A stretch of DNA of 64,000 nucleotides from contig NZ_JAQKGV010000013.1 in the NCBI RefSeq assembly GCF_028617075.1, forward strand, positions 35,636 through 99,635, written 5' to 3'. Below the pieces are notes generated by a model, which was given only the letters and a program-made list of their open reading frames with translations, made no database searches and was not told the DNA's origin. Of the stretch, positions 45,830 through 54,049 are shown in pieces. The stretch's first letter is position 1; each line of letters starts with the position of its first letter. The stretch comes from Rubrobacter calidifluminis. Lineage in GTDB: Bacteria > Actinomycetota > Rubrobacteria > Rubrobacterales > Rubrobacteraceae. The translations under genes and the position numbers were made by a program.

Positions 45830-46768
45830 GTGAAGGTCGTGGCGCTCGCAGGGGGGGTCGGCGGGGCGAAGCTCGCCTCGGGCTTGCAGGCGGTTCTCAC
45901 CCCGGGAGAGCTCACCGTCGTGGTCAACACCGCCGACGACTTCTGGCTGTGGGGCCTTCGCATCTGCCCGGACCTCGACACCGTGATGTACACCCTCGCC
46001 GGGATCGCCAACCCCGAAACCGGCTGGGGCGTGATGGACGATACGTTCTTTGCGCTGGGCATGCTCTCCCGGTACGGGGAGGACGCCTGGTTCAGGGTCG
46101 GTGATAGAGACCTCGCGACCCACGTGCTGCGCACGAGCCTGCTGCGCGAAGGGGAGAGGCTCACGCAGGTGACCGCCCGCCTCGCTGCCGCGCTCGGCGT
46201 GCCCGGCCGGATCCTGCCGATGTGCGACGAGCCGGTCTCGACGCTGCTCTACACGCCCGCCGGGAAGCTCGAGTTCCAGGAGTACTTCGTCCGACGCGCC
46301 CAAAAGGACGAGGTGCTCGGGGTGGAGCTGCGCGGCATCGGGGAGGCCCGGGCGAGCCGGGAGGTGGAGGATGCAATCTCGGCGGCGGACGCTGTCGTGA
46401 TATGCCCTTCCAACCCGGTGGTGAGCATCGGGCCCATCCTTTCCGTACCAGGTATGCGTCGGGCCCTCGCGGAGAGCGGTGCGCCGAAGGCGGCCGTGAG
46501 CCCGCTCGTCGGGGGCCGGGCGCTCAAGGGGCCCGCCGACAGGATGATGTCCTCGCTGGGCAGGGAGGCCTCGGCCCTCGGCGTCGCGCGGGAGTACGAG
46601 GGGGTGGTGGGGGGGATGGTGGTAGACCGGGCCGACGAGAGGGAGCGGGCCGGTATAGAAGATCTCGGGATGGAGGTTCTCGTCACGGATGCCGTGATGC
46701 GCTCGGAGGAGGACCGCGCGAGGCTTGCCGGGGAGGTGCTCGACTTCTGCGGGAGTTTGGGCGCGTGA
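45830..46768 (+). CDS. fbiA: 2-phospho-L-lactate/PEP transferase CofD (FbiA)
   Basis: A 312-residue CofD-family transferase. It has the N-terminal VVALAGGVGGAKLASGL (nucleotide loop), VVVNTADDFWLWGLRICPDLDTVMYTLAG, and later AVVICPSNPVVSIGPILSVPG and VSPLVGGRALKGPADRMM. It joins the GDP-activated phosphoenol- or lactyl-group to the Fo deazaflavin, making (dehydro-)F420-0. The GTG start at 45830 is set by the conserved KVVALAGG beginning. It is first of three consecutive F420 genes; its TGA overlaps the ATG of cofC by one base. Confidence 0.95.
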   Translation: MKVVALAGGVGGAKLASGLQAVLTPGELTVVVNTADDFWLWGLRICPDLDTVMYTLAGIANPETGWGVMDDTFFALGMLSRYGEDAWFRVGDRDLATHVLRTSLLREGERLTQVTARLAAALGVPGRILPMCDEPVSTLLYTPAGKLEFQEYFVRRAQKDEVLGVELRGIGEARASREVEDAISAADAVVICPSNPVVSIGPILSVPGMRRALAESGAPKAAVSPLVGGRALKGPADRMMSSLGREASALGVAREYEGVVGGMVVDRADERERAGIEDLGMEVLVTDAVMRSEEDRARLAGEVLDFCGSLGA

Positions 46769-47349
46769 TGCGGCCCTTCGCCGCGGTACCCGTCAAGGAT
46801 CTTCGCGAAACGAAGAGCCGGCTCGGTGGCGTGTTGCCGGCGGAGAAGCGTGCCGCCCTGACGCTGAGGACTCTGCGGCGGGTTCTCGGCGCCCTGCGAG
46901 GGGCTGAGATCGGGTCGGTCTGCGTCGTGAGCCCGGACGAGGGGGTGCTCGGGGTCGCAGGGGAAGAGGGTGCCCACCCCCTGCACCAGAGGAGCGCGGG
47001 CCTGAACCCGGCGCTCGAGGAGGCGCGGGCGTGGGCGCTCTCCGGGGACGCCGGTTCCCTGCTCGTGCTCCCCTCCGATCTCCCCCTGTTGCAGCCGGAC
47101 GATGTCGGGGTTTTGCTCCGATCCGCCGGGAGGGCTCCGGTCGTGATCGCCCCGGACCGCGCGCGCACCGGCACCAACGCACTGTTGCTCCGCCCTCCGG
47201 ATGCCATGCCGTTCGCGTTCGGGGAGGGGAGCTTCGCCCGGCATATTCGTCTCGCGCGGGGGAGGGGGCTTGCCGTAGAGGTCTGCGAGCGCCCGAACCT
47301 CTCCTTCGACCTCGACACCGCGGCGGATCTGGAGCGGCTGGTCTCTTGA
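46768..47349 (+). CDS. fbiD: Phosphoenolpyruvate/2-phospholactate guanylyltransferase CofC (FbiD)
   Basis: A 193-residue nucleotidyltransferase. It has the N-terminal AAVPVKDLRETKSRLGGVLPAEKRAAL, VLPSDLPLLQPDDV (metal-binding Asp pair), DRARTGTNALLLRP and the C-terminal FDLDTAADLERL, all marks of the CofC family. It makes the GDP-activated C3 unit used by CofD; in actinobacteria the substrate is phosphoenolpyruvate, giving dehydro-F420. Its stop overlaps the TTG start of cofE. Confidence 0.94.
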   Translation: MRPFAAVPVKDLRETKSRLGGVLPAEKRAALTLRTLRRVLGALRGAEIGSVCVVSPDEGVLGVAGEEGAHPLHQRSAGLNPALEEARAWALSGDAGSLLVLPSDLPLLQPDDVGVLLRSAGRAPVVIAPDRARTGTNALLLRPPDAMPFAFGEGSFARHIRLARGRGLAVEVCERPNLSFDLDTAADLERLVS

Positions 47350-48089
47350 GCGGCATCTCCGTAATCCCGGTAGAAGGGCTCCCGGAGATCCAACCCGGCG
47401 ACGATCTCGCCGCCCTGCTCTGCGCGGCCGTACGAGACGAGATCGCGCCGGGGGACATCCTCGTCGTAACCCACAAGGTGGTGAGCAAGGCCGAGGGACG
47501 GCTGCTCGACCTGCGCACCGTCGAGCCCTCGCCACTGGCGAAGAGCTTCGCCGCCGAACACGGCAAAGACCCCCGCCAGATCGAGGCGGTCCTGCGCGAG
47601 AGCCGGCGCATCGTCCGGATGGACCGCGGGCTCATCATCTCCGAGACCCGCCACGGCTTCGTCTGCGCCAACGCCGGGGTCGACGCCTCGAACGTCCCCG
47701 GAGAGGAAGTCGTATGCCTGCTCCCCCTCGACCCCGATGCCTCCGCCGCCCGGATCCGTCACCGGATCGCCCGGCTCACCGCCATCGACGTCCCGGTCAT
47801 CGTCTCGGATTCCTTCGGGCGGCCCTGGAGGAACGGCATAACCAACGTCGCCATCGGCCTCTCCGGGATGAAGCCCTTCTCGGACTACCGGGGCCACCGC
47901 GACCCCTACGGCTACGAACTCTCCGCAAGCGTCCTCGCCTCCGCCGACGAGATCGCCGCCGCCGCCGAGCTCGTGATGGGGAAGACCGCCGCCGTGCCCG
48001 CAGCCCTGGTGCGCGGCTTCCCGTACACGCCGGGCGAAGGCGCCGCCTCCGAGATGGTCATGGACCCCGGCAGAGACCTCTTCAGATAG
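47346..48089 (+). CDS. cofE: Coenzyme F420:L-glutamate ligase CofE (stand-alone)
   Basis: A 247-residue CofE-type ligase that adds the gamma-glutamyl tail to F420-0 with GTP. It has the N-terminal VEGLPEIQPGDDL, VVTHKVVSKAEGR, RHGFVCANAGVDASNVPG and VIVSDSFGRPWRNGITNVAIG. It ends after this domain, whereas mycobacterial FbiB carries a further FMN nitroreductase domain that reduces dehydro-F420. That second half is found at 57262, fused elsewhere. TTG start, 4-bp overlap with cofC. A 234-bp control region to cysH follows. Confidence 0.95.
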   Translation: MSGISVIPVEGLPEIQPGDDLAALLCAAVRDEIAPGDILVVTHKVVSKAEGRLLDLRTVEPSPLAKSFAAEHGKDPRQIEAVLRESRRIVRMDRGLIISETRHGFVCANAGVDASNVPGEEVVCLLPLDPDASAARIRHRIARLTAIDVPVIVSDSFGRPWRNGITNVAIGLSGMKPFSDYRGHRDPYGYELSASVLASADEIAAAAELVMGKTAAVPAALVRGFPYTPGEGAASEMVMDPGRDLFR

Positions 48090-53420: not shown

Positions 53421-53464
53421 GGTCGAGGCATTTCTACGGAAGAAAGTTTCGCAGGAGGGAGGTT

Positions 53465-54049
53465 TTGAAGATGCAGAACGAGAGGGGGCTGGGCGAGCGC
53501 GGGTTCACGCTCTGGTTCACCGGGCTCTCGGGCGCCGGGAAGACCACCATCTCCGAGATAGTCGAGCGCGAGCTCAGGCTGCGTTTCGGACGTGTCGAGG
53601 TTCTGGACGGCGACATCGTCAGGACGAACCTCTCCAAGGGGCTCGGGTTTTCCAAGGAAGACCGTGACACCAACGTACTCAGGATAGGTTTTGTCGCGAA
53701 GCTGCTGACCCGCAACGGTGTGGCCGTTATCGTCAGCGCTATCTCCCCCTACCGGGAGGCGCGCAACAGGGTCCGGGAAGAGATAGGTGAGGATTTCATA
53801 GAGGTGTACGTGGACGCTCCCGTGGAGGTATGCGCCGAGCGGGACGTCAAGGGCCTCTACAAGAAGGCTTTCGCCGGAGAGATAAAGGCTTTCACAGGCG
53901 TCTCAGATCCCTACGAGCCGCCGGAAAACCCGGAGCTGCACATAAAGACAACCCAGGAGAGTCCACAGGAGAGCGCCCGCAGGGTCATCGAGTACCTGGA
54001 GGAGCGTGGATACCTGAAGCCCCTGAGGACGCTCAGCGGCGCGCGCTGA
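53465..54049 (+). CDS. cysC: Adenylylsulfate kinase
   Basis: A 194-residue APS kinase. The P-loop is GLSGAGKTT, followed by LDGDIVRTNLSKGLGFSKEDRDTN (APS-binding Arg/Asn) and VIVSAISPYREARNRVR. It phosphorylates APS to PAPS. In an operon with an APS-type reductase it may serve sulfation, or control of the APS pool, rather than the reduction route. The TTG start has AGGAGG 6 nt upstream. Its last codons lie within a long hairpin shared with the convergent gene. Confidence 0.96.
   Translation: MKMQNERGLGERGFTLWFTGLSGAGKTTISEIVERELRLRFGRVEVLDGDIVRTNLSKGLGFSKEDRDTNVLRIGFVAKLLTRNGVAVIVSAISPYREARNRVREEIGEDFIEVYVDAPVEVCAERDVKGLYKKAFAGEIKAFTGVSDPYEPPENPELHIKTTQESPQESARRVIEYLEERGYLKPLRTLSGAR

Follow-up and report, generated by a model that had tools for sequence, protein, structure and literature searches.

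A 64,000-nucleotide stretch of Rubrobacter calidifluminis (assembly GCF_028617075.1, contig NZ_JAQKGV010000013.1, positions 35,636 to 99,635; hereafter the window) carries a siroheme sulfite reductase gene, sir, which is directly followed by frhB, a gene for an FrhB/FpoF-type protein. Judging from sequence, we consider it probable that the two adjoining genes encode the subunits of a single enzyme. Its predicted role is the biosynthetic reduction of sulfite to sulfide at the expense of reduced coenzyme F420 (F420H2). Complex formation, F420 as the donor, sulfite as the substrate, and the direction and route of the electrons are what we infer here rather than compute. A wider proposition is put forward more tentatively, with its chances a little short of even: that aerobic Rubrobacteraceae and many Acidimicrobiia have no sulfite reductase other than an F420H2:sulfite reductase module that has moved between haloarchaea and bacteria, that these organisms need F420 when living on sulfate, and that the small protein Orf4 joins the actinobacterial complex as a third component of new structure. 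The two central genes are listed below; their type names refer to aFsr, the haloarchaeal system with which the pair is compared in the last section.

49069-50694, plus strand: sir, siroheme-[4Fe-4S] sulfite reductase subunit (aFsr-alpha type); PF01077 and PF03460, two stretches each
50699-51892, plus strand: frhB, predicted F420H2-oxidising flavin adenine dinucleotide (FAD)/Fe-S subunit (aFsr-beta type); PF04422 and PF04432 over cut-off, and Fer4_21

The two proteins and their cofactor residues

The best match of FrhB in the PDB is the Fsr of M. jannaschii (7np8, E 2e-42). Other relatives are 8riu (E 2e-41), which we take to be an F420-reducing CODH subunit, and 9tn7, with the ferredoxin-dependent plant enzyme HCAR far behind at 9e-4. 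Conservation was scored over 102 distinct rows for FrhB and 95 FrhB-linked rows for Sir. The N-terminal ferredoxin domain of FrhB contains two complete CxxCxxCxxxCP motifs, C35-C45 and C64-C74; among rows with letters, the first is kept in 97 of 97 and the second in 101 of 101. Two features that mark the FrhB/FpoF family are present as well, namely the FAD motif QDGG at residues 116-119 (complete in 100 of the 101 rows with letters, with one serine variant) and the cluster cysteines C198, C229, C290 and C293 of the FrhB domain (102/102 rows). According to the accessible sections of two reports, QDGG holds the FAD pyrophosphate in FrhB and the four cysteines correspond to Cys104, Cys134, Cys192 and Cys195 (PMC3591093, PMC3930138). 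The F420-proximal turn reads IGKGK in FrhB and IRGK in the window protein. In G000, the window genome of 3.09 Mb in 54 contigs (96% complete), no PF04432 protein other than FrhB was found.

Two haloarchaeal FrhBs (L060:6482-8200 and L062:6479-8203) bear an N-terminal extension of more than 150 residues with a Cys-Gly-rich patch, which is absent from the bacterial rows and from Natronococcus. A phylum sample of 296 genomes contains a second, widespread FrhB group (about 26-37% identical), whose genes did not adjoin sir in any locus opened. Two of its members lie beside ferredoxin-like open reading frames (ORFs) (L178:5515-6711, L181:3592-4725), one near a cofC-like ORF (L179:5812-6963) and one near cofD (L177, in genome G024). 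Where it stands next to a ferredoxin gene, a protein of this group could be an F420H2:ferredoxin oxidoreductase.

Sir is a protein of 541 aa whose nearest PDB relatives by sequence are plant ferredoxin nitrite reductase and M. tuberculosis NirA, enzymes that take their electrons from free ferredoxin. The best named profile, NF007125 'ferredoxin--nitrite reductase', matched below its cut-off. An AlphaFold2 model of Sir (mean predicted local distance difference test score (pLDDT) 84.2, predicted template modelling score 0.87) matched the fold of NirA (1zj8) over its whole length with a template modelling (TM) score of 0.88, and that of Fsr weakly (TM 0.33-0.34); no inserted ferredoxin domain of the Fsr kind was seen in Sir. 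These matches support the preliminary description of this DNA, which had assigned the reductase to the assimilatory NirA/SirA type.

The siroheme-[4Fe-4S] motif of Sir, C399-x5-C405 and C443-x3-C447, is invariant in 95/95 linked rows. R112, K189 and K191 are likewise kept in all 95 and R69 in 94, the remaining row having a gap. By position, we assigned these four residues to the Arg/Arg/Lys/Lys sulfite-binding set, which the accessible part of PMC10229431 terms perfectly conserved among sulfite reductases. All four are also present in 30/30 comparison Sirs, which came from 42 chosen genomes, mostly picked for having no close FrhB (the neighbours of Sir in these genomes lie outside the comparison); K191 is thus no distinguishing mark of the linked Sirs. 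The residue aligned with K191 in tobacco nitrite reductase is Asn226, and PDB entry 3vlx is, by its title, the N226K mutant. Six plasmid-borne comparison proteins had no FrhB in the fetched stretch, five of them haloarchaeal and one from Chlorohelix. Four carry Asn at the K191 position, three of these beside nasA, and those of Natronorubrum and Chlorohelix carry Lys, as do six FrhB-linked haloarchaeal Sirs. Four cysteines in the first half of Sir (143, 153, 197 and 201) are invariant in the 95 linked rows and occur together in 6 of the 30 comparison Sirs. We rejected this possible extra-cluster set as a mark of an FrhB partner, as five haloarchaeal NirAs without an adjoining FrhB keep three or four of them.

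The window genome yielded no NIR_SIR protein besides Sir, whose two halves account for the PF01077 matches. Among 23 genomes searched, 22 had any NIR_SIR match, and in 16 of these the FrhB-linked Sir was the sole NIR_SIR protein; genome G157, in which sir linkage was not assessable, was kept out of the 16. CysJ was over cut-off in none of eight Rubrobacteraceae, two of which gave weak partial matches.

Linkage, descent and setting of the gene pair

In the 296-genome phylum sample, almost every member of the window's family has a close FrhB orthologue, as do members of a few further families. A scan of genome contigs returned 281 relatives; among the 80 matches listed, which sample the taxonomic spread, most are metagenome-assembled genomes (MAGs) labelled Acidimicrobiaceae, Acidimicrobiales or actinobacterium, followed by Rubrobacteraceae and one Chloroflexi contig. 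Matches at E <= 1e-10 also came from nine plasmid records, of which seven are haloarchaeal. Removal of six contigs present twice left 101 distinct loci, the window's own not included. The preliminary description had proposed a search of sequenced relatives for sir-frhB adjacency, and its outcome is clear: of the 98 distinct loci with upstream DNA, 97 have sir on the same strand immediately before frhB. An in-frame frhB start that overlaps the sir stop or is no more than 5 bp from it occurs in 94 of the 97, and the largest gap is 181 bp. In three of the other four loci frhB is at a contig end (L045, L124, L125); the fourth, L063, is taken up below. Adjacency of this extent is far beyond chance.

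The pair stays constant while its neighbours vary. One locus reads cysC-sat-cysH-sir-frhB-orf4 (L034), and another (L035) as well as six haloarchaeal loci have sir-frhB with no other cys genes in the fetched stretch. The two genes adjoin in the same order in six of seven haloarchaeal plasmid loci; Haloferax mediterranei carries a homologous pair on pHME505, and named Rubrobacter strains including R. taiwanensis carry the pair as well. In Natronococcus and Halomontanus, the gene upstream of frhB is labelled 'rhodanese-like' and contains Sir (L064:4556-6955 and L065:4338-6878); the full Natronococcus protein has two rhodanese-like stretches ahead of Sir, and in Natronococcus occultus a nosZ cluster comes after the pair.

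Trees were calculated with IQ-TREE from hand-picked sets of 41 FrhB and 47 Sir rows, one Sir fragment (L036) having been dropped for its length. The Sir tree separates all 33 linked Sirs, as a single clade (100/98), from 14 comparison Sirs. Both trees divide the haloarchaea into the same two groups: Natronococcus and Halomontanus join bacteria of group f8 (100/99 in the FrhB tree, 89/77 in the Sir tree) and the other haloarchaea branch elsewhere, so that at least two changes between archaea and bacteria are required on the best tree. In the FrhB tree, haloarchaea fall inside the bacterial spread, beside the Chloroflexi contig; in the Sir tree, unlike the FrhB tree, haloarchaea branch outside the group of Rubrobacteraceae, Acidimicrobiia and Chloroflexi. 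Support is low (82-92) for several inner branches, and the position of the FrhB root is uncertain owing to long outgroup branches. From these trees we claim that sir and frhB have probably been inherited together and transferred across domains, and we claim no direction. Two loci labelled Acidobacteriota (L075) and Saccharibacteria (L088) fall among Acidimicrobiia-labelled rows in both trees and are probably binning or naming errors.

Apparent natural fusions of the two genes did not hold up. Five candidates (P0074, P0123, P0124, P0126 and P0128) are likely frameshift products, each with at least one out-of-frame stretch against its relatives when compared by eye. The stretch lies at the Sir tail in P0074, P0124, P0126 and P0128; P0123 is out of frame inside Sir and inside FrhB, and its junction reads through cleanly. 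Long open frames of 914-989 aa in genomes G041, G163 and G042 were rejected as fusions, with sir and frhB in different frames.

In the window, the pair is part of a sulfate-assimilation operon set among genes of F420 biosynthesis. All start codons are predictions.

45830-46768, plus strand: cofD, 2-phospho-L-lactate transferase (F420 biosynthesis); TIGR01819 326.8 bits, over cut-off
46768-47349, plus strand: cofC, 2-phospho-L-lactate guanylyltransferase (F420 biosynthesis); TIGR03552 175.8 bits, over cut-off
47031-48089, plus strand: cofE ORF, F420-0:gamma-glutamyl ligase; TIGR01916 284.3 bits, over cut-off; PF01996
48324-49082, plus strand: cysH, phosphoadenylyl-sulfate reductase; NF002537 254.4 bits, over cut-off
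51895-52248, plus strand: orf4, small conserved all-helical protein of unassigned function; no family match
52239-53420, plus strand: sat, sulfate adenylyltransferase; NF003166 548.8 bits, over cut-off
53465-54049, plus strand: cysC, adenylyl-sulfate kinase; NF002059 280.1 bits, over cut-off
61380-63755, minus strand: fbiC (CofGH), FO synthase; NF006687 1140.2 bits, over cut-off

From cysH through sir, frhB, orf4 and sat to cysC, the spacings are -14, 4, 2, -10 and 44 bp (negative values are overlaps), sir starting with a predicted GTG inside the 14-nt overlap with cysH. The cofD-cofC-cofE genes lie upstream, with a gap of 234 bp between cofE and cysH; the real start of cofE is probably near 47350, because the family match spans residues 109-352 only. 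On the opposite strand, 7 kb downstream, fbiC completes an F420 island that surrounds the sulfate operon. ORF calls and profile matches agree throughout with the gene positions and the order cysH-sir-frhB-orf-sat-cysC of the preliminary description, and the ORF coordinates confirm two separate genes 4 bp apart, downstream of cofD-cofC-cofE. Within the island, the gene at 57262-58323 fuses a PPOX-class F420-dependent oxidoreductase domain (TIGR03668, over cut-off) to a domain resembling the FbiB C-terminus (TIGR03553, below cut-off). No regulatory RNA was found between window positions 44000 and 56000 at E values up to 1.

The protein encoded by orf4 has 117 aa, with P13, W49, E73, W77, G80, W84, L91, G93, R94, R97 and R98 invariant. 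Of 104 loci whose downstream DNA extends for 450 bp or more (six contigs counted twice), 89 have orf4 after frhB. Carriers are Rubrobacteraceae, most Acidimicrobiia-labelled loci and the Chloroflexi contig; orf4 is missing from all six haloarchaeal loci tested, from the f8 and f2 loci tested and from most of one Acidimicrobiia subclade. The model is all-helical with a pLDDT of 93.5. Foldseek gave no PDB fold match at E <= 0.001, and there was no Pfam or NCBIfam match below E 0.08. Our guess is that Orf4 may be an assembly or regulatory subunit.

F420 supply, proposed electron route and alternative readings

F420 genes accompany the pair in most carriers. cofD was over its cut-off in 156 of the 296 sampled phylum genomes. 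Among the 32 genomes of this sample with an FrhB of the sir-linked type, 30 had a strong cofD match and 28 were over cut-off. The same test on 50 of the 80 listed loci, representing 50 further sir-frhB genomes, gave 45 over cut-off, three more truncated strong matches and two without a match. As a possible source of F420H2, the best F420-reducer candidate found in the window genome is a protein of the TIGR03557 family. It scores 331.6 bits on that profile (cut-off 210.4) and higher, 357.8 bits, on the flavin mononucleotide (FMN) family TIGR03885, below the cut-off of the latter.

The proposed route begins with three F420H2, which would deliver six electrons to the FAD of FrhB. From there, the FrhB-domain [4Fe-4S] cluster (C198, C229, C290, C293) would receive the electrons and hand them on to the two-cluster ferredoxin domain that is part of FrhB itself (C35-C45, C64-C74). 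This domain may dock on Sir at the site that free ferredoxin occupies in plant-type sulfite reductases, and would pass the electrons to the siroheme-[4Fe-4S] centre (C399, C405, C443, C447) and thereby to sulfite. The accessible part of PMC10229431 places the external ferredoxin of the maize enzyme at the corresponding position in a comparison with Fsr. Ligands for clusters 1-3 of the Fsr scheme are present in FrhB, and no counterpart of clusters 4-5 was seen. The preliminary description had an F420H2-oxidising FrhB feeding a NirA/SirA-type reductase. PDB relatives, conserved residues, adjacency, co-inheritance and F420 genes speak for this pairing; the electron route is the part that we still infer.

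Several observations weigh against an F420H2-driven two-subunit enzyme. Fsr has two more clusters in its inserted ferredoxin domain, which is absent from Sir, and direct transfer from FrhB to Sir is therefore unproven. The Sir model has low confidence in its cofactor loops (pLDDT <50 at residues 142-145, 402-407 and 444-448). At the last position of the IRGK turn, where a lysine is proposed to contact the phosphate of F420, 96 of 102 rows have Arg or Lys and six have another residue, including Asp in Haloferax mediterranei. On the Halopiger xanaduensis plasmid, an open frhB that is missing from the annotation (L063:5001-6194) lacks an adjoining sir. A strong cofD match is missing from two of the 32 and two of the 50 sir-frhB genomes, all four being draft MAGs. 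Of the two in the phylum sample, G163 has a cofH match over cut-off and G248 also lacks a convincing fbiC or cofH match. Co-occurrence with F420 genes is in any case weak evidence by itself, because the carriers are related. Fno (npdG) was over cut-off in none of nine genomes of the window's family, among which G041 gave a nearly full-length match at 93.8 bits (cut-off 149.8); of the 13 genomes searched, four were over cut-off, none from this family. Finally, we found no assay of any aFsr in the open-licence literature, as far as its text was accessible.

Genome G109, of the same genus, looked like a natural knock-out and was not used as evidence. Neither a NIR_SIR gene nor cofD was found there, and the best frhB match, at E 1.3e-4, is not a close one; the best cofH match of this genome is a 68-residue stretch of the C-terminal end in a 77-aa open frame, and the LLM protein is present. 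An assembly gap over the whole island is the likelier explanation, because the island genes lie within 18 kb in the window genome.

Could FrhB instead be an F420H2:ferredoxin oxidoreductase that recharges free ferredoxin, with Sir an ordinary ferredoxin-dependent NirA/SirA that is co-expressed and forms no single complex with it? Sir is most like ferredoxin-dependent nitrite reductase and NirA, and such a division of labour may exist, given the distant FrhB group found beside a ferredoxin-like ORF in the two opened loci L178 and L181. We nevertheless regard this as unlikely: no ferredoxin gene was found in the operon, FrhB has a two-cluster ferredoxin domain of its own, and strict adjacency and the joins shared by the two trees point to a dedicated pair. 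That the FrhB-like protein makes no use of F420 and, in the manner of HCAR, draws electrons from ferredoxin or another donor appears very unlikely. HCAR does belong to the FrhB family, FrhB-like genes occur in organisms such as Parabacteroides, which to our knowledge is not known to make F420, and the proposed F420-phosphate lysine is not strictly kept. Yet the FrhB sequence is far nearer to proven F420 enzymes than to HCAR, and F420 genes are found in nearly all carriers searched and flank the operon in the window.

We also considered that the pair might be an F420H2-dependent nitrite reductase and not a sulfite reductase. The best named profile of Sir bears the name of a nitrite reductase (below cut-off, as noted), one haloarchaeal pair stands beside nosZ, and the accessible part of PMC9295563 describes a group II Fsr of anaerobic methanotrophic archaea (ANME) that reduces nitrite and showed no F420H2-dependent sulfite reduction. 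Against this, sir lies inside a sulfate-assimilation operon and is the only siroheme reductase found in the genome, and Lys occupies the position of nitrite reductase Asn226 in 95/95 linked rows (as in 30/30 comparison Sirs). We regard a nitrite reductase as extremely unlikely.

Relation to known systems

F420 in aerobic soil bacteria is usually discussed for detoxification and secondary metabolism. If the predicted F420H2-dependent sulfite reductase proves real, coenzyme F420 would enter the core sulfur assimilation of common aerobic soil bacteria. A prediction standing since 2012 becomes testable with the pairs of Haloferax mediterranei (pHME505) and R. taiwanensis. The preliminary description had presented the separate reductase and FrhB genes as a distinct design, and this novelty falls away: in the accessible part of their 2012 paper, Susanti and Mukhopadhyay proposed the same two-subunit arrangement for haloarchaea as aFsr, an aSir subunit with a free-standing homologue of the N-terminal half of Fsr (Fsr-N), and the tree legend lists Thermobaculum terrenum and the Rubrobacter xylanophilus ORF Rxyl_0964 (PMC3448663). 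Rxyl_0964 is probably the orthologue of the window frhB. Apart from that legend entry, the aFsr description in the part seen covers haloarchaea only (PMC3448663). A 2022 alignment legend uses the name 'aFsr-beta' and lists Rxyl too (PMC9295563, accessible part), and a table in a 2021 review, as far as its text was available, lists Fsr for methanogens only (PMC8498797). We found no account of a bacterial sir-frhB operon in the accessible open-licence literature. What the analysis adds is the extent of the bacterial branch together with its co-inheritance, the status of the linked Sir as sole sulfite reductase and the conserved third gene orf4.

The window pair shares with haloarchaeal aFsr an aSir-type alpha subunit with the CX5C...CX3C motif and a separate, free-standing FrhB-type beta subunit with two N-terminal [4Fe-4S] centres. 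The genes adjoin in the same order, the Sirs form one clade with those of the haloarchaeal pairs, the haloarchaeal joins are shared by both trees, and fetched haloarchaeal pairs are 45-57% identical to the window proteins. Unlike the haloarchaeal system, the window pair is bacterial and lies in a full sulfate-assimilation operon with orf4, beside F420 genes. With group I Fsr of methanogens it has in common an FrhB-type F420H2-oxidase module with an N-terminal ferredoxin domain and a siroheme-[4Fe-4S] sulfite reductase (PMC10229431, accessible part). Methanogen Fsr, however, is a single polypeptide with the FrhB part first, and its short Dsr-like half contains an inserted two-cluster ferredoxin domain, whereas the window has two chains with the sir gene first and a full-length NirA/SirA-type reductase; neither defining feature of group I is present. 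Sir itself resembles M. tuberculosis NirA (1zj8) and plant ferredoxin nitrite reductase in its whole-length fold and its siroheme cluster motif, and differs from both in that its gene is paired with frhB.

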